DNA of 47,984 nucleotides from Terriglobia bacterium (GTDB lineage Bacteria > Acidobacteriota > Terriglobia > Bryobacterales > Bryobacteraceae), in contig JANXYJ010000136.1 of the NCBI GenBank assembly GCA_025350105.1, positions 1-47,984 of the forward strand. The letters are read 5' to 3'. The translations under genes were made by a program, and so were the position numbers. Shown here one piece after another: positions 195 to 9,737 of this stretch. The notes under the pieces were generated by a model. That model ran no database searches. It was given only the letters and a program-made list of their open reading frames with translations, and was not told where the DNA came from. Position 1 is the stretch's first letter. The number at the start of each line of letters is the position of its first letter.

Positions 195-1325
195 ATGATC
201 TTTCTACAAACACAAGCTTACGAGACGCACGGGGGGATGCAGACCTACATGCGGCGGATCGCGGAGATTATGAGCGAGATTTGCGAGGAGACGGAGATGC
301 CGTTCGACTCGGTGTCGGTGACGGATTCGGTGTTGAATCTGGCGCTACATACAAATGAATGCCATTACAACGATTTTCTGGCGGCGCGGGGGAATCGGGC
401 GAGGTTTGTTTCGATGGCGGTGGATTTATGCCGGAAGGCGAAACGCGCGGGAGTCAAGCACAAGGTGGCGGTGCTGGGACATGTGAGTTTGGCTCCGGTG
501 GGGGATTGGTTGCGGAGGCTGGGGTTGATTGATCACTATGTTGTGGTTCTGCACGGGATTGAGGCGTGGGTGCCGAAGAGCAGAATCAATCGCGCGGCAT
601 GCCGGCGGGCCTCGGGCATTGTCGCGACAACGCGGTATACGGCGAAGGAATTTCAGATTCAGAATCAGTTCGCGCACCGGGCGATGCATGTGGTGCCGCT
701 GGCGCTGCCGGAACATCATTTACTTCCGCGGAAAGTCACCGCAGCGGGCGGGCGGCTTTCGGTATTGACGGTGGGGAGGCTGGACTCTTCAGAACGCTAC
801 AAGGGATTTGAGCACTTGATCCACGCGGTTGGCCGGTTGGTACGGGATGGGGCGGAGATCGAGTTAAAGATTGTCGGCGTAGGCGATGACCGCCAGCGAT
901 TGGAGGCCCAGGCGCGTGACGCCGCTCCGGATGGCCGGGTGCGATTCCTGGGTGGCGTTCCGGAAGAAATGATGGAGCGGGTTTACCAGGAAGCAGATGT
1001 TTTCGCCATGCCGAGCAAGAATGAAGGCTTTGGCCTTGTCTTCCTGGAAGCCATGCGGTATGGCAAGCCGTGCATTGGGGGCAATCACGGGGGGACGCCG
1101 GAGGTGGTGCGGCATGGAGTGGACGGGTATCTGGTGGAGTTCGGCGATGAGGACAGTTTGACGCGCCATTTGGGAGAGATGGCGGGAGATCGTTCTTTGG
1201 TTAAGGAATTGGGTCGTAACGCTTATGAGCACGCGTCGGCGGAGTATGTGTATCCGGTGATGCGCGAGGGGTGGTGGAAGATCTTACGGGAATTCGCAGT
1301 GCCGGAGTACGCGGAGGCGGTCTAA
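195..1325 (+). CDS. GT4 family glycosyltransferase
   Basis: A 376-residue GT-B fold glycosyltransferase expected to transfer a nucleotide-activated sugar to a lipid-linked glycan at the inner face of the membrane. The N-terminus has the early Gly-rich turn of GT4 enzymes (ETHGGMQTYMRRI). The C-terminal half carries the donor-site pattern of the family, SKNEGFGLVFLEAM, with the two glutamates of the EX7E motif, followed by GGTPEVVRHGVDGYLVE. I chose the ATG at 195 because homologous proteins begin right at this beta-strand; a longer frame is open upstream to position 9 but looks non-coding. No clear ribosome-binding site precedes the ATG. Its last codons contain a GGAGG that probably serves the downstream asnB. 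Sugar and acceptor specificity cannot be read from the sequence. Confidence 0.85.
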   Translation: MIFLQTQAYETHGGMQTYMRRIAEIMSEICEETEMPFDSVSVTDSVLNLALHTNECHYNDFLAARGNRARFVSMAVDLCRKAKRAGVKHKVAVLGHVSLAPVGDWLRRLGLIDHYVVVLHGIEAWVPKSRINRAACRRASGIVATTRYTAKEFQIQNQFAHRAMHVVPLALPEHHLLPRKVTAAGGRLSVLTVGRLDSSERYKGFEHLIHAVGRLVRDGAEIELKIVGVGDDRQRLEAQARDAAPDGRVRFLGGVPEEMMERVYQEADVFAMPSKNEGFGLVFLEAMRYGKPCIGGNHGGTPEVVRHGVDGYLVEFGDEDSLTRHLGEMAGDRSLVKELGRNAYEHASAEYVYPVMREGWWKILREFAVPEYAEAV

Positions 1326-1327
1326 AT

Positions 1328-3232
1328 ATGTGTGGAATCGCGGGGGCGTTTTCTTATCGTGACTCCGGGCGGGTGGACCGCGGCGTGTTGGTTGCGGTGC
1401 GGGATCAGATGGAGCGGAGGGGTCCGGATGCGGCGGGGTTGTGGGTGTCTGGTGATGAGCGTGTTGGGTTGGCGCACCGGCGATTGTCGATCATCGATCT
1501 GAGCGATGCCGGAACGCAGCCGATGGTTTGCGGAGACGGGCGGTATGTGATCGTCTTCAACGGGGAGATTTACAACTATCGCGAATTGCGCGAGCGGGTG
1601 ATGGCGCGGGGGTATGAGTTGCGCTCGCACTGCGATACGGAAGTGCTGCCGTATTTGTATGAGATGGAAGGTATGGAGATGTTCCGGCTGATGCGTGGCA
1701 TGTACGCGTTTGGGTTGTGGGATACGCGCGAGCAGGAATTACTGTTGGCGCGGGATCCGTTGGGGATCAAGCCCTTGTATTTCGCCGATGATGGCAAGCA
1801 GTTCTGGTTCGCGTCGCAAGTGAAGGCATTGCTGGCGGGTGGAGTTGGGGGCGAGGCTGATCCGGCGGGGCATGTTGGGTATCACTTGTGGGGCAATGTG
1901 CCGGAGCCGTTCACGCTCTTCAAAAATATTCGGGCGTTGCCGGCGGGACATTATTTGAAGTTGGGGCGGGGTGGAGAGGCGAAGGTTCGAGAGTATTGGT
2001 CCTTGCGCGGGGTGTTGGAGCAAGCCGCGCAAGGGCGGGGAGTTTGCTCCGTTGCTGCGAGATCCGCGTCCACTGGATCGGCCGCGCGCGAGTCATTACG
2101 AGCGTTGCTGGCGGATTCGCTACGCGATCATTTGGTGGCGGATGTGCCGGTGGGAGTGTTTCTGTCGTCGGGAAGAGACTCGGCCACACTTGCGGCGCTG
2201 GCCAGCGAAAACAAGACGCACAATTTGCATGCGCTGACGATGGGTTTTGAAGAGTTTCGCGGCACGGAGAAAGATGAAATGCCGCTGGCGAGAGTGGTGG
2301 CGGAGCAATTCGGCGCAACGCACGATGAAGTGATTTACAGCCGGCTGGACATGCAGAAGTTGATGGACCCGTTTCTGGCGGCGATGGATCAGCCGACGGT
2401 GGATGGGTTCAACGTGTTCATGGTGAGTCACGCGGCGGCGGTGCGCGGATTGAAAGTGGCGCTATCGGGTGTTGGGGCGGATGAAGCGTTCCAGGGGTAC
2501 ACGAGCTTTCAAACTATTCCTCAACTGGCACGGCGGATGCGGGTGTTTGGAATGGTGCCGGGGTTAGGGACGGCATTGCGGGTGGTTTCGGCACCATTCG
2601 TGAAAGCGCGCACGAATCCGAAGTACGCCAGTCTGGTGGAATTGGGCGGGAAGTTGGGTGGCGCGTATTTGTTGCGGCGAGGGATGTACATGCCCTGGGA
2701 GCTGCCTTCGATTTTGGATGGCGAAATGGTGCGCGAGGGATTGCGAAAGCTGCAACCGTTGGCGGAGTTGAACGAGGTGGGCGGAACTCCGGGCATGGAT
2801 GACGGGGTTCGGCTGGTGGTGCTGGAGTTTCAGTACTATTTGCGAAATCAATTGCTGCGGGACACGGATTGGGCGTCGATGGCGCATTCGCTGGAGGTGC
2901 GGACTCCGTTTGTGGATGCGCGGTTATTGGAGGGAATCGTCAAACACGCGAATCAATTTGGGTGGCCGTCAAAGGGGTTGATGGCGGCGACACCGCGTAC
3001 CGGGCTGCCGGAAGAATTGTTGAACAAGCCTAAGACGGGATTCGGCATTCCAAGTTTTAATCCGCGCCGCGATAAACCGGTGAAGGGCGAATTGCCACAG
3101 CGCACCTGGGCGCGGGAAGTGTATCTGAACTATTTGCTGCCGGCAGCCAATGTGACGCCGAACGCGACGCCGAATTTTTTATCCGGGCGTTCTGATGCAA
3201 AGACCAGCGCCGCGGCTGTGTGCGTATCCTGA
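1328..3232 (+). CDS. asnB: Asparagine synthetase (glutamine-hydrolysing)-type amidotransferase
   Basis: A 634-residue class II glutamine amidotransferase fused to an ATP-pyrophosphatase synthetase domain. Cys2 of the MCGIAG start is the glutaminase nucleophile; R51/R52, the FNGEIYN motif (N78-E80) and D103 complete the glutamine site. The PP-loop near residue 280 reads SSGRDS rather than the common SGGxDSS, a variant that keeps the serine and aspartate. In this setting such proteins are usually thought to amidate a sugar carboxylate or other polysaccharide precursor rather than make free asparagine; that is inference. The ATG at 1328 is preceded by GGAGG about 10 bases upstream and follows the previous stop by two bases. 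The stop codon lies inside the first copy of a 29-bp repeat. Confidence 0.88.
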   Translation: MCGIAGAFSYRDSGRVDRGVLVAVRDQMERRGPDAAGLWVSGDERVGLAHRRLSIIDLSDAGTQPMVCGDGRYVIVFNGEIYNYRELRERVMARGYELRSHCDTEVLPYLYEMEGMEMFRLMRGMYAFGLWDTREQELLLARDPLGIKPLYFADDGKQFWFASQVKALLAGGVGGEADPAGHVGYHLWGNVPEPFTLFKNIRALPAGHYLKLGRGGEAKVREYWSLRGVLEQAAQGRGVCSVAARSASTGSAARESLRALLADSLRDHLVADVPVGVFLSSGRDSATLAALASENKTHNLHALTMGFEEFRGTEKDEMPLARVVAEQFGATHDEVIYSRLDMQKLMDPFLAAMDQPTVDGFNVFMVSHAAAVRGLKVALSGVGADEAFQGYTSFQTIPQLARRMRVFGMVPGLGTALRVVSAPFVKARTNPKYASLVELGGKLGGAYLLRRGMYMPWELPSILDGEMVREGLRKLQPLAELNEVGGTPGMDDGVRLVVLEFQYYLRNQLLRDTDWASMAHSLEVRTPFVDARLLEGIVKHANQFGWPSKGLMAATPRTGLPEELLNKPKTGFGIPSFNPRRDKPVKGELPQRTWAREVYLNYLLPAANVTPNATPNFLSGRSDAKTSAAAVCVS

Positions 3233-3300
3233 TTCACGCATTGGGCGTATGCGTATTTTAATCCACGCCCTGGGCGTATGCGTATTTTAATCCACGCCCT
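3220..3300 (+). repeat. 29-bp tandem repeat, three copies, carrying a gene start
   Basis: Start codons followed by codons for RILIHALGV occur at 3220 (GTG), 3249 (ATG) and 3278 (ATG), exactly 29 bp apart. The units 3243-3271 and 3272-3300 are identical. The first copy differs from the second within the coding part only at synonymous positions (for example atc/att, ctg/tta, gca/gcc). Because 29 is not a multiple of three, the first two copies run into TAA stops at 3259-3261 and 3288-3290, giving 13-codon mini-ORFs; only the third leads into the glycosyltransferase. Each identical unit also has an inverted repeat, gggcgt with acgccc at its two ends. The asnB stop codon (3230-3232) lies inside the first copy. 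Confidence 0.9.
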
Positions 3301-4417
3301 TGGCGTGTCAATGGGCGGCGCTAAGCGCCATCTGACGAATCTGCTGAAGACCCTGGCGGTGGATTCGCGGGGGCACAGCTTTGTGGTGTTCGGGCGGGAA
3401 TCGGTTCTGCCACAAAGCGCAACATCTCTAGAGAACGCAGCGTTTGAGTTCGTGAAATTTTCCGATGCTGGCAGCGGGTTTTCGCTCGGCCGGTTGAAGA
3501 CCGATGTTTTCGATACGCCGCGTTTTGCGAAACAACACGCCTGCGATGTGATTGTGAGCTTGACCAACAACGGCCCCATTTTTTCGCCGGTGCCGCATGT
3601 GGTGTTCCAAAGAAATGCGCTGCTGTTCGCTCCCGAATATTTGGCGGATTTGCCAAGATCTCAGCAGCACAAGATGAAGATGCAACGTCGGCTAGCGGTG
3701 GAAACAATGAAGCGTGCGCGGGTGATTGTCACGCCCAGCCGGTCCATGGCTGACCTTGTGAAAACGGATTGCCCCGAGGTAGCGGGTAAACAATTTCAAG
3801 TGCTGTACCACGGGTCGTCGGTAGCAGCGCTGAATGAACCCTTGTCCGAAAAAGTTGCCGTGCTTTTCGAAAGGCCCGGGCCCAAGCTCCTGTATCCCAC
3901 GCACGGGGCCATTCACAAGGGTTTCGACGATTTGTTGCGCTTGCTGGTGGAACTGAAAAAGCAATTGGACTTCACCCTGTACACAACCCTTGGGGAAGAG
4001 AGCGCGGACGTGCTGGAATCCGTTCGGAGTCAGGCGAAGGAGTTGGGCTTGGAACGGAATTTGGTTTTCACCGGGCAAATTCCGCAAGGCCAAATGGGCG
4101 GGCTGTACCGGCGTTGTGACGCGATGATTTATCCGTCTCTGCTGGAATCCTTCGGCTATTCGATGGTGGAAGCGATGGGCTGCGGCCTGCCGATTGTGGC
4201 GGCGGATACGGCAGTGAATCGGGAAATTTGTGGTGCGGCAGCGAAGTATTATGCCGCCATCGATGCGGTGGCGGGAGCGCGGAGCCTGCTGGCCGCCCTG
4301 GAAAAAGAAGAGAACCAACGGCTGAAGGCAGAGGCGCCAGCGCAACTTTCCGCGCTGAATTGTTCCTGGGACGCGTATCGCGAAAGTTTCTTGAAGTTGA
4401 TTGAGGCGGTGGCATGA
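3278..4417 (+). CDS. GT4 family glycosyltransferase
   Basis: A 379-residue GT-B glycosyltransferase. The N-terminus MRILIHALGVSMGGAKRHL is the usual first strand and Gly-rich loop of GT4 enzymes. The C-terminal donor site reads YPSLLESFGYSMVEAMGCGLPIVAADTAVNREICG, split here across the EX7E glutamates ESFGYSMVE. It probably adds one sugar to the lipid-linked repeat unit. The start is the third of three tandem copies of its own 5' end, so ribosomes may initiate at 3220 or 3249 and terminate early; no good Shine-Dalgarno sequence lies in front of the third copy. The last four bases (ATGA) overlap the start of the next gene, which suggests translational coupling. Confidence 0.85.
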   Translation: MRILIHALGVSMGGAKRHLTNLLKTLAVDSRGHSFVVFGRESVLPQSATSLENAAFEFVKFSDAGSGFSLGRLKTDVFDTPRFAKQHACDVIVSLTNNGPIFSPVPHVVFQRNALLFAPEYLADLPRSQQHKMKMQRRLAVETMKRARVIVTPSRSMADLVKTDCPEVAGKQFQVLYHGSSVAALNEPLSEKVAVLFERPGPKLLYPTHGAIHKGFDDLLRLLVELKKQLDFTLYTTLGEESADVLESVRSQAKELGLERNLVFTGQIPQGQMGGLYRRCDAMIYPSLLESFGYSMVEAMGCGLPIVAADTAVNREICGAAAKYYAAIDAVAGARSLLAALEKEENQRLKAEAPAQLSALNCSWDAYRESFLKLIEAVA

Positions 4418-6039: not shown

Positions 6040-8133
6040 ATGCGACAGATCACTCAACATTTAGGGAATGGGGCGACGGCGTTGGCGACGGCTCCGGCTC
6101 CGGCGGCGGGACGAGAGGGGCTGTTGGTGCGAACGGGCGCGTCGTTGATTTCGGCCGGGACCGAACGGATGCTGCTCGATTTCGGAAAAGCGAGCTGGAT
6201 TGAGAAAGCCCGGCAGCAACCGGATAAAGTGCGAATGGTGCTGGATAAAGTGCGCTCCGATGGGTTGATGCCGACTCTGGAGAGCGTGCGGGCCAAGCTG
6301 GATCAGCCGATTCCATTGGGGTATTCGAGCGCAGGTGTGGTTCTGCAGGCGGGCGCGGGGGTGAGTGAATTTCGCGCGGGAGAGCGCGTGGTGTCGAACG
6401 GTCCGCATGCGGAAATTGCGTCGGTGCCAAAGAATTTATGTGCGCGGATTCCGGAGACGGTGAGCGATGAGGCGGCGGCGTTCACGGTGGTGAGCGCGAT
6501 TGCGCTGCAGGGGATTCGATTAGCCGAACCCACTTTGGGCGAGGCGTTCGTGGTGACGGGTTTGGGCCTGATTGGGTTGATCACGGTTCAACTGTTGCGG
6601 GCGCAAGGGTGCAGGGTTCTGGGAATTGATTTTGATTCGCGGAAGATTGCGTTGGCGGAACTGTTCGGCGCGGAAACGGTGGATCTTTCAAAAGGCGAAG
6701 ACCCGATTGATGCGGCGGAGCGTTTCAGCCGGGGCAGGGGAGTGGACGGCGTGATTCTGACGCTGGCGACGAAGAGTAATGAACCGGTTCACCAAGCTGC
6801 GACGATGTGCCGTAAGCGCGGGCGAATTGTGTTGGTGGGGGTGAGCGGGCTGGAGCTTTCGCGCGAGGATTTCTATAAGAAAGAGCTGTCGTTTCAAGTT
6901 TCGTGTTCCTATGGTCCGGGGCGCTACGATGCCGCGTATGAGCAGGGTGGGCAAGACTATCCGCATGCGCATGTGCGTTGGACCGCGCAACGCAACTTTG
7001 AAGCGGTGCTGGACATGATGGCCGACGGGCGTTTGAATGTGACGCCGTTGGTGACACACCGCTTTCCCTTTGATCGTGCGCTAGATGCGTACAAATTGCT
7101 GGACGGCGAGGAGTTTTATCTCGGAATCGTTTTACAGTATCCGAGTGAGAAAAGTGTCAGCGACCTTTTAGAGCGGCGGGTTACGCTGCGGCCGGCGCTG
7201 AGCACGGCGGCGAAAGCGAATATCGGCTTTATTGGTGCAGGCGGTTATGCGGCGAAGGTTTTGATGCCGGCGTTTCAAGAGGCGGGGGCAAATTTTGTGT
7301 CGGTGGCTTCGCAGGGCGGATTGAGCGCCGCGCATGCTGGCAACAAGTTTGGCTTCGCCGAAACCACGACGGATATCGACGCCATGTTCGCGGATGAGCG
7401 CATCGATACGGTGGTGATTGCGACTCGTCACGATACACACGCGGCGTTGGTTTGCCGGGCACTGGAAGCGGGCAAGCATGTGTTTGTGGAAAAGCCGTTG
7501 GCGCTGACGCTAGGGCAATTGGACGAAATCGAAGAGATGTATAGCGGCATGCGTGTTCGTCCGGTGCTGATGGTGGGCTTCAATCGACGGTTTGCTCCGC
7601 AGGTGAACAAGGCGAAGGCGCTGCTGGAGGGCGTGGGTGGACCGAAGTCGTTCATCTACACAGTGAATGCGGGGGCGATTCCTGGCGATCATTGGACGCA
7701 GGATCTGCAAACGGGCGGCGGGCGCATTGCGGGCGAGGCGTGCCACTTCATCGATCTGCTGCGCTATTTGGCGGATTCGCCGATCACAGAGGTTGAGACG
7801 AAACGCCAGTCGGCGGACACGGCGGTGATTCAGTGCCGGTTTGAAGATGGCTCGCTGGGGACGATTCACTATACGGCGACCGGGCACAAGTCGTTCCCCA
7901 AGGAACGTTTGGAAGTTTTTGGCGGCGGACGGATTTTGGCGCTGGACAATTTCAAAAAGATGCGCGGCTACGGGTGGCCGGGCTTTCGCACGATGAACCT
8001 TTGGAGCCAAAACAAGGGCGCGAAGGAAATGGCGGCGGCGTTTGTGGAGGCGATTCGCAGAGGTTCGGCTCCGCCGATTGGGTTTGAAGAGTTGATGGAA
8101 GTTTCCAGGGCGACATTATCTGCCGCGCAGTGA
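6040..8133 (+). CDS. Two-domain oxidoreductase (alcohol dehydrogenase-like + Gfo/Idh/MocA)
   Basis: A 697-residue fusion common in surface-polysaccharide clusters. Residues 1-380 resemble medium-chain dehydrogenases, with the substrate-domain signature SAGTERMLLDFGKA and the NAD-binding GLGLIG at 174-179. From about residue 390 a second Rossmann domain begins (IGFIGAGGYAAK), with the Gfo/Idh/MocA signature GKHVFVEKPLAL. The pair probably oxidises or epimerises a nucleotide sugar or a glycan; the true reaction of this fusion family is poorly defined. I chose ATG 6040 because family members start with M(K/R)Q; a TTG at 6019 has a better upstream purine run (AGGTGGGG) and is an alternative. The stop codon is inside the first of three 29-bp repeats. 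Confidence 0.85.
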   Translation: MRQITQHLGNGATALATAPAPAAGREGLLVRTGASLISAGTERMLLDFGKASWIEKARQQPDKVRMVLDKVRSDGLMPTLESVRAKLDQPIPLGYSSAGVVLQAGAGVSEFRAGERVVSNGPHAEIASVPKNLCARIPETVSDEAAAFTVVSAIALQGIRLAEPTLGEAFVVTGLGLIGLITVQLLRAQGCRVLGIDFDSRKIALAELFGAETVDLSKGEDPIDAAERFSRGRGVDGVILTLATKSNEPVHQAATMCRKRGRIVLVGVSGLELSREDFYKKELSFQVSCSYGPGRYDAAYEQGGQDYPHAHVRWTAQRNFEAVLDMMADGRLNVTPLVTHRFPFDRALDAYKLLDGEEFYLGIVLQYPSEKSVSDLLERRVTLRPALSTAAKANIGFIGAGGYAAKVLMPAFQEAGANFVSVASQGGLSAAHAGNKFGFAETTTDIDAMFADERIDTVVIATRHDTHAALVCRALEAGKHVFVEKPLALTLGQLDEIEEMYSGMRVRPVLMVGFNRRFAPQVNKAKALLEGVGGPKSFIYTVNAGAIPGDHWTQDLQTGGGRIAGEACHFIDLLRYLADSPITEVETKRQSADTAVIQCRFEDGSLGTIHYTATGHKSFPKERLEVFGGGRILALDNFKKMRGYGWPGFRTMNLWSQNKGAKEMAAAFVEAIRRGSAPPIGFEELMEVSRATLSAAQ

Positions 8134-8207
8134 TTCTGCGCTTTGTGTCTGCCGCGCAGTGATTCTGCGCTTTGTGTTTGCCGCGCAGTGATCTTGCGCT
8201 TTGTGTT
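8121..8207 (+). repeat. 29-bp tandem repeat, three copies, carrying a gene stop
   Basis: Units begin at 8121, 8150 and 8179 (tgccgcgcagtg...), each 29 bp; the third differs by small substitutions. The first unit contains the last codons and TGA stop of the two-domain oxidoreductase gene; the other two lie between genes, just before the ATG at 8214. Each of the first two units contains the perfect inverted repeat gcgcag-tgatt-ctgcgc, so the region could form up to three small hairpins. The unit is unrelated in sequence to the 29-bp repeat at 3220-3300 but has the same period. Confidence 0.9.
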
Positions 8208-8213
8208 TGCCAA

Positions 8214-9737
8214 ATGCTTTCGCGCATGATTCATACTGTTCGCCATCTGAAGCCGGTGCAGGTGTATGGCCGCGTGTATCGGCCGAAGCCGCGTTTGGTG
8301 AGTTGGGCCCCCGCACCGGAGTTGCGATTGTTGACGGGGCAGTGGCGTGAGGCGATTCAGCGCGAGAATGCGCAGCTGAGTGAGAACCGTTTCTTGTTTC
8401 TGAACCAGGAACGGGAAATCAAGACTTGGAACGACGAAAGGGTTCCCAAGCTGTGGTTGTACAATTTGCACTATTTTGATGCGCCCAATCGGCTGCTGGT
8501 TGATCGTTGGATCGCAGAAAACCCGGTGGGGGAGGGCAATGGGTGGGAGCCGTACCCGCTGTCGCTGCGGATCGTCAACTGGATCAAATGGCATTTGGCG
8601 GGGAAGGTTTTAGATGGCGCTGTTTTAGATACAGCGCAGCGAAACAGTTTGGCGGACCAGGCACGGTATTTATCGCAGAGCATTGAATACCATTTGTTGG
8701 CAAACCACCTGTTTGTGAATGCCAAGGCGCTGATTTTTGCAGGAACGTTTTTCGATGGGGACGAAGCGGCGCGCTGGTTGAGGACGGGGCTGACGATTCT
8801 GAACGCGCAAATCAAAGAGCAAGTGCTGAGCGATGGCGGGCACTTTGAACGCAGCCCGATGTATCACTCGCTGATTCTGGAAGACATTCTGGATTTGGTG
8901 AACTTAGCCGATGCGTACGGCACTTTGCGACAACGCGGCGAGTGGGCTGAATGTGGCGCCCGTATGTTGTGCTGGTTGAGCCAGCTGACACATCCAGACG
9001 GAGGCATTTCGTTTTTCAACGATTGTGCGTTCGGCATTGCGCCGGAGGTGGTTGCGTTACACGCTTACGCGGCGCGATTGGGACTGATGGCGGCTGATGT
9101 GAGGTTGGGCGAGAGCGGGTACATCCGGCTATCACATGAGAATACAGCGGTGCTTTTTGATGCGGCGGCGGTGGGGCCGGACTATCAACCGGGACACGCG
9201 CACGCGGATACATTGTCGTTTGAGTTGTCGCATCGGGGCCAGCGTATGTTGGTGAATTCGGGGACGTCGACTTATGGAAACGGAGCGCTGCGGCATTGGC
9301 AACGGTCGACCGCGGCGCACAATACGGCGACGGTGGATGGGCTGGATTCGTCAGAAGTGTGGAGCGCGTTTCGGGTGGCGAGGCGCGCGCGGCCGCTGGA
9401 GGTTCAATCCGACCACTGCAAGTTTGCCGAGGCCGGGCATTCAGGCTACCAGCGTTTGAGCGGTGTCATTATCCATCGGCGACGGCTGGAACTGGAAGCC
9501 GCGCAATTGCGCGTGATCGACAGTTTTGAAGGCTCTGGCGTTCACGACGTCAAGCTGTTCTTCCATTTGCACCCGGAAACCAAATGCAATCCGGTGCTGG
9601 ATCCGCAGCTGCGGGTGGCGGTTGAACCGAGCCAGTGGTATCTGGAGTTCAACGTGTCCGCACCCAATGTGACGATGGTTGGTTCCTGGACCGGCGAATG
9701 CCCGGCGAGGTTTATCAGTCACATTCCGCTTCCGTAA
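8214..9737 (+). CDS. Heparinase II/III family protein
   Basis: A 507-residue protein with the layout of heparinase II/III-like polysaccharide lyases: an N-terminal alpha/alpha-toroid part with LLANHLFVNAKAL and the hallmark GGHFERSPMYH (about 208-218), then a C-terminal beta-rich part with PGHAHADTLSFEL (H328, H330). No signal peptide is evident, which fits the cytoplasmic or membrane-associated versions found inside O-antigen and exopolysaccharide clusters beside WecB and AsnB genes. Whether it is a lyase or has another role in chain modification is not established for this subgroup. The start could also be ATG 8226. It follows the 29-bp repeats by six bases. Confidence 0.85.
   Translation: MLSRMIHTVRHLKPVQVYGRVYRPKPRLVSWAPAPELRLLTGQWREAIQRENAQLSENRFLFLNQEREIKTWNDERVPKLWLYNLHYFDAPNRLLVDRWIAENPVGEGNGWEPYPLSLRIVNWIKWHLAGKVLDGAVLDTAQRNSLADQARYLSQSIEYHLLANHLFVNAKALIFAGTFFDGDEAARWLRTGLTILNAQIKEQVLSDGGHFERSPMYHSLILEDILDLVNLADAYGTLRQRGEWAECGARMLCWLSQLTHPDGGISFFNDCAFGIAPEVVALHAYAARLGLMAADVRLGESGYIRLSHENTAVLFDAAAVGPDYQPGHAHADTLSFELSHRGQRMLVNSGTSTYGNGALRHWQRSTAAHNTATVDGLDSSEVWSAFRVARRARPLEVQSDHCKFAEAGHSGYQRLSGVIIHRRRLELEAAQLRVIDSFEGSGVHDVKLFFHLHPETKCNPVLDPQLRVAVEPSQWYLEFNVSAPNVTMVGSWTGECPARFISHIPLP

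Follow-up and report, generated by a model that had tools for sequence, protein, structure and literature searches.

Three tandem copies of a glycosyltransferase gene start, diverged by silent changes, at an asnB–GT4 junction

Genes and repeat units at the junction

The window, which is contig C160 of the draft genome G000 at its full length of 47,984 nucleotides, comes from an uncultured bacterium and carries a sugar-polymer gene cluster; the draft comprises 4,736,772 bases in 206 contigs, with a completeness of 96.46. At the junction between an asnB-type asparagine synthetase gene and a GT4-family glycosyltransferase gene lie three head-to-tail 29-bp units (3220-3306), with starts at GTG 3220, ATG 3249 and ATG 3278 (Table 1). 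The downstream protein falls in the GT4 family by its PF00534 match (2.2e-21), which scores 76.6 bits where the curated cut-off is 26.4. Every unit opens with M/V-RILIHALGV, the start and first codons of this GT4 protein. The triplicated, 29-bp-spaced starts described in an earlier note on this DNA were recovered both by a repeat search and by TRF (3221-3306, period 29, 3.0 copies, score 116), and by these searches the array fits the minisatellite/VNTR class in its unit size, tandem units of approximately 10-100 bp.

Table 1. Features at the asnB–GT4 junction, in window coordinates
Feature	Position	Strand	Description
asnB-type glutamine-hydrolysing asparagine synthetase gene	1325..3232	+	ORF; Pfam Asn_synthase 8.4e-52, GATase_7 3.1e-44; TGA stop at 3230-3232
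Unit 1	3220..3248	+	GTG start, RILIHALG(V); first 13 nt (3220-3232) overlap the asnB end and stop; geometry of the single G170 junction
Unit 2	3249..3277	+	ATG start, RILIHALG(V); identical to unit 3 at 28/29 bases and to unit 1 at 22/29
Unit 3	3278..3306	+	ATG start, in frame with the GT4 body
Mini-ORF a	3220..3261	+	13 codons, (M)RILIHALGVCVF; TAA 3259-3261; 13-nt overlap with start 3249; read from the sequence
Mini-ORF b	3249..3290	+	13 codons, MRILIHALGVCVF; TAA 3288-3290; 13-nt overlap with start 3278; read from the sequence
GT4-family glycosyltransferase gene	3278..4417	+	ORF, 379 aa; Pfam Glycos_transf_1 2.2e-21
Possible hairpin with ATG 3249 in the loop	3243..3270	+	GGGCGT (3243-3248)/ACGCCC (3265-3270); -9.1 kcal/mol, z -0.39; not significant
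Hairpin of the same type around the GT4 start	3272..3299	+	GGGCGT (3272-3277)/ACGCCC (3294-3299); -11.1 kcal/mol, z -1.34

Per 29 nucleotides, units 1 and 2 differ at seven positions, units 1 and 3 at eight, and units 2 and 3 at one. The sole difference within units 2 and 3 (3272 G against 3301 T, CTG/CTT) is silent, and corrects the earlier description of copies two and three as identical in DNA. Codon comparison bore out the further claim of exclusively synonymous differences between copies 1 and 2, which affect five of the nine RILIHALGV codons. Against unit 3 the same five codons differ, and so does the third position of the V codon, a base outside the 29-nt unit; again every difference is silent. 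The start codon (GTG in unit 1, ATG in units 2 and 3) is the only change of a non-silent class in the GT4 frame.

As had also been described, copies one and two are shifted out of frame and end after 13 codons, each at its TAA. Since 29 leaves a remainder of two when divided by three, a ribosome that has crossed one unit enters the following one in the asnB frame and meets a stop, giving the 13-nt overlap at the end of each mini-ORF. The arrangement of a coupled gene pair, with a stop overlapping or near the next start, is thereby found three times, at asnB/unit 1, mini-ORF a/unit 2 and mini-ORF b/GT4, by 13 nt each; the GT4 start ATG 3278 itself lies at +45 nt from the asnB stop. One third of all unit lengths would give this geometry, which is therefore no evidence of selection by itself. 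Whatever the number of units, it is the start in the final one that adjoins the GT4 body, and the GT4 frame is therefore independent of unit number. By this reasoning on the sequence, the array is not a phase-variable contingency locus in which repeat number switches the frame, and the proposal that loss of one unit shifts which start feeds the gene is not supported when understood as a frame change. Separately, over 3230-3280 the asnB TGA is in frame with ATG 3278 with no intervening stop, so that readthrough would yield an AsnB-GT4 fusion; this arrangement is likely due to chance (one in three).

Silent divergence and the junction in relatives

An outcome in which all differences are silent was rare under chance. 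For six random substitutions in 26 coding bases its probability was 6.5e-5 to 5e-4, and for seven it was 2.5e-6 to 8e-5, the ranges spanning choices of transition bias and starting copy. These values supersede a first version of the test, with one base outside the unit and another transition weighting (P 4e-4 to 9e-4 for six changes, approximately 3e-6 to 3e-5 for eight). The outcome was also rare when constraint was simulated on the downstream copy only: all-silent differences arose in 0.015-0.73% of runs, a range that covers both freezing of the 13-nt asnB overlap of copy 1 and retention of just its stop. In the asnB frame (VCVS against VCVF) and in the other frames compared, the differences between unit 1 and units 2 and 3 are non-silent. 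Given the rarity of an all-silent outcome under both chance and downstream-only constraint, the simplest explanation is that the versions diverged as working GT4 starts and met later. We therefore suggest that the two junction versions probably drifted apart during a period in which each served as the functional start of a GT4 gene, and that they were subsequently brought together. The chance tests and the simulation thus support the earlier argument that silent-only divergence implies that copy 1 was once the start of a real protein.

A single-copy form of the junction is present in G170, a genome from another genus of the same family that keeps the order asnB-GT4-GT2-methyltransferase-Gfo/Idh. 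Protein identities between the window and G170 are 42, 33, 52, 34 and 60%, respectively (the names asnB, GT4 and GT2 come from Pfam on the window genes, methyltransferase and Gfo/Idh from inspection by eye). The G170 junction holds one unit (a single pattern match), in which a GTG GT4 start overlaps the asnB TAA by 13 nt. This is the geometry of 3220-3232, and it favours the earlier suggestion that copy 1 is the original start overlapping the asnB stop. The start-region bases were compared with G170 only. Despite 33% overall identity, the two GT4 proteins share eight of their first nine residues, indicating that the N-terminus is strongly constrained.

With asnB as the neighbour, a stop/start overlap is the usual state of this junction. 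Among 15 homologous loci, asnB lies directly upstream in seven, and in all seven it overlaps the glycosyltransferase start (six by 4 nt, G170 by 13 nt); at the remaining eight, the end of the upstream ORF ranges from 4 nt inside to 73 nt before the match start. These loci comprise G170, the 11 of 25 other class matches for which a locus was given, and L107, L109 and L111, the L107 genome being also one of those 25.

The distribution of the cluster looks patchy, judging from the genomes searched. In the order, 6 of 257 genomes matched GT4 at E ≤ 1e-20, the bacterium's own included; the best other was G170 (32-33% identity), and no near relative carrying the GT4 gene was found among the 257 (best other 32% identity). 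The 22 genomes of the same genus gave no GT4 match better than 1.4e-18. Matches at E ≤ 1e-20 occurred in 7 of 151 relatives of G170, and a class-wide search with a two-row alignment matched 26 of 399 genomes at E ≤ 1e-35. At E ≤ 0.001 the GT4 protein had matches in 60 of 61 genomes, all but its own weak (best other 5.7e-32), and GTDB genome contigs yielded 17 GT4 loci, the best-scoring at 28% identity. Viral contigs contained no exact match to a 20-base piece. An orthologous polysaccharide-type operon from another genus, at L113:4923-13520, comprises asnB, GT4, GT2, a methyltransferase, a Gfo/Idh fusion and a heparinase-like gene (the last assigned by eye).

Origin of the array and tandem repeats in the genome

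In the origin that we propose, the junction would once have existed in two diverged versions, each a real GT4 start; unit 1 would stem from one of them and units 2 and 3 from the other. Short direct repeats are sites where slippage or out-of-register joining creates tandem units, and GGCGT is such a repeat: it immediately precedes the starts of both unit 2 and unit 3 and recurs, at 29-bp spacing, in GT4 codons 9-10. Out-of-register joining, probably at this repeat, would first have united unit 1 with a type 2/3 unit, which slippage would then have duplicated; the postulated second allele would likewise have carried GGCGT ahead of its start. The diverged downstream allele might have been imported, one of its ends being joined through microhomology. 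Homology-facilitated illegitimate recombination has one homologous and one illegitimate end, as described in PMC3240628. Such recombination would join a diverged allele; here it is only a possible route, the donor not having been found in G000, where searches with the unit 2/3 and unit 1 patterns at up to three mismatches returned only the array and one three-mismatch hit. Codon usage shows only a weak difference between the two sides of the junction (chi-square 56.8, 37 df, P 0.02); ordinary variation between genes could account for this, and it was set aside as a trace of recombination. We also dropped the idea of a chimeric unit 2, formed from unit 3 with the end of unit 1, its basis being a single within-unit base.

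Two diverged versions of one junction standing side by side are also the expected look of a strain chimera, in which an assembler has fused DNA from two strains that differ in their synonymous codons, and the window is a single contig of a 206-contig metagenomic draft. We consider such an artefact unlikely. The unit boundary GGCGT/ATGCG occurs twice (3248/3249 and 3277/3278), and single-copy junctions would, by inference, offer an assembler just a few overlapping bases there.

Short tandem arrays are plentiful in this genome. A G000 sample of 985,184 bases gave 81 TRF rows of period at least 16 and score at least 50, overlapping rows included. When the period was not a multiple of three, our tally placed 25 of 32 rows in the gaps between mechanical ORFs or at their edges; for multiples of three the figure was 14 of 49. 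A second 29-bp array (8119-8211; 3.2 copies, 95% matches) sits 5 kb away at another gene junction, where it covers the 3' end and stop of a Gfo/Idh-type fusion gene and reaches the start of a heparinase-like gene at 8214 (both by eye). Its sequence is unrelated to that of the first array, and its 26-base core has no other genome match within three mismatches. Period 29 was rejected as a genome-wide signature, since among the TRF rows of the sample it occurs in just the window's two arrays. In the same genome, a 28-bp array (L068:6812-6924; 4.0 copies, 96% matches) lies inside a minus-strand mechanical ORF; its period is not a multiple of three, and the ORF may therefore be spurious or the array frame-changing.

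These arrays make an ordinary minisatellite a possible, if not a probable, explanation of the junction: a slippage array without a role in expression, tolerated since GT4 stays intact through its final unit, its silent-only pattern being coincidence or old history. The number of arrays in the sample, the unrelated 29-bp array nearby and the position of most non-multiple-of-three arrays between or at the edge of ORFs all argue for it. The tolerance part, however, fits the joining of two versions equally, and the silent-only divergence is left unexplained. The array resembles bacterial minisatellites in its head-to-tail 29-bp units, two of them near-identical, and in its array-rich genome; it differs in that every unit includes a conserved protein's start together with a stop out of frame, and in that the changes in the diverged unit are all silent. 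Thus, given how plentiful such arrays are, the array as such is ordinary, whereas coupling-junction units with silent-only divergence are unusual. The array is a real oddity, and a statistically clear one, for which the joining of two versions would be a sensible evolutionary reading and the functional reading below a proposal.

Predicted hand-over of ribosomes from asnB to GT4

The stop/start overlap of asnB and GT4 is a probable translational-coupling junction that would have been tandemly multiplied to three 29-bp units. GT4 would be made from ATG 3278 alone, and this start, 45 nt after the asnB stop, would be too distant for efficient direct reinitiation. Huber et al. (2023; PMC10666635) found with E. 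coli reporters that reinitiation across a 38-nt gap fell by 80-90% for two gene pairs and was lost altogether for another. We propose instead a stepwise hand-over, in which ribosomes terminating at the asnB stop would restart at GTG 3220, those terminating at TAA 3259 at ATG 3249, and those terminating at TAA 3288 at ATG 3278. Since each mini-ORF restores the 13-nt stop/start overlap, the units may pass coupling on instead of just blocking it; since ribosomes would be lost at each step, the array should lower GT4 relative to asnB, and more so with added units, while leaving the GT4 frame unchanged. It is thus possible that the array lowers or tunes GT4 expression, and it may slow the hand-over of ribosomes from gene to gene without breaking it.

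The junction resembles known overlapping pairs with termination and reinitiation in the 13-nt overlap of asnB and unit 1, as of asnB and GT4 in G170, and six more asnB-glycosyltransferase pairs overlap by 4 nt. It departs from such pairs in that the overlap occurs three times in a row, with a chain of two mini-ORFs between the genes, and in that coupling here is predicted. An overlap of 13 nt is unusual; the commonest overlap lengths, by a wide margin, are 4 and 1 nt (Huber et al. 2023; PMC10666635). In the open-licence PMC papers found on repeats with coupling or reinitiation, slipped-strand mispairing at starts, tandem starts or VNTR, the titles and abstract openings showed no similar arrangement.

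RNA unfolding is the other model of translational coupling named in a review (PMC12548453). The start-codon hairpin is predicted to be weak in the window copies (Table 1), and the unit 1 start-codon fold has a z of +0.90. The G170 counterpart, whose GT4 start also carries GGGCGT, is strong (-14.9 kcal/mol, z -2.57). Ranked against 685 mechanical ORF starts of G000, the folds fall within the lowest 0.9% (G170), 5.1% (unit 3), 14% (unit 2) and 17.8% (unit 1). A fold spanning the whole junction (z -0.64) was rejected. No Shine-Dalgarno-like 4-mer is present 18 to 4 nt before any of the three window starts; the stretch before the G170 GT4 start holds GAGG, and such a 4-mer occurs at only 179 of the 685 mechanical ORF starts.

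The mini-ORFs might instead have been selected as leader peptides, the 13-residue (M)RILIHALGVCVF itself being made and needed, for example for regulation. Both mini-ORFs do encode the same peptide after the start. Their residues, however, are the conserved GT4 N-terminus and are thereby explained without a second function; the CVF tail is merely the next unit read in the asnB frame, and the G170 junction has no such mini-ORF. A selected peptide is thus very unlikely. The best combined explanation, the joining of two diverged junction versions followed by a relay through the mini-ORFs to GT4, seems to us about equally likely to be right or wrong; our confidence is higher for the anatomy of the array and lower for the relay. 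More broadly, a repeat-built translational relay could be a graded attenuator of a downstream gene, tunable by unit number and arising from the joining of two diverged junction alleles, an idea that we regard as rather doubtful on present evidence from sequence.

Phase-variable coding repeats change by slipped-strand mispairing, and here too a change in repeat number near a start codon could alter expression. Unlike in those loci, each unit brings its own start and the GT4 frame is fixed, such that a graded rather than an on/off change is predicted. If the relay is false, the array would still be a molecular record of two diverged alleles fused at a gene junction. If it is true, the junction would show, as a natural test, over what distance and how often terminating ribosomes can be passed on, and the ratio of two proteins of one operon could be tuned through repeat number in small, frameshift-free steps, unlike classical phase variation.
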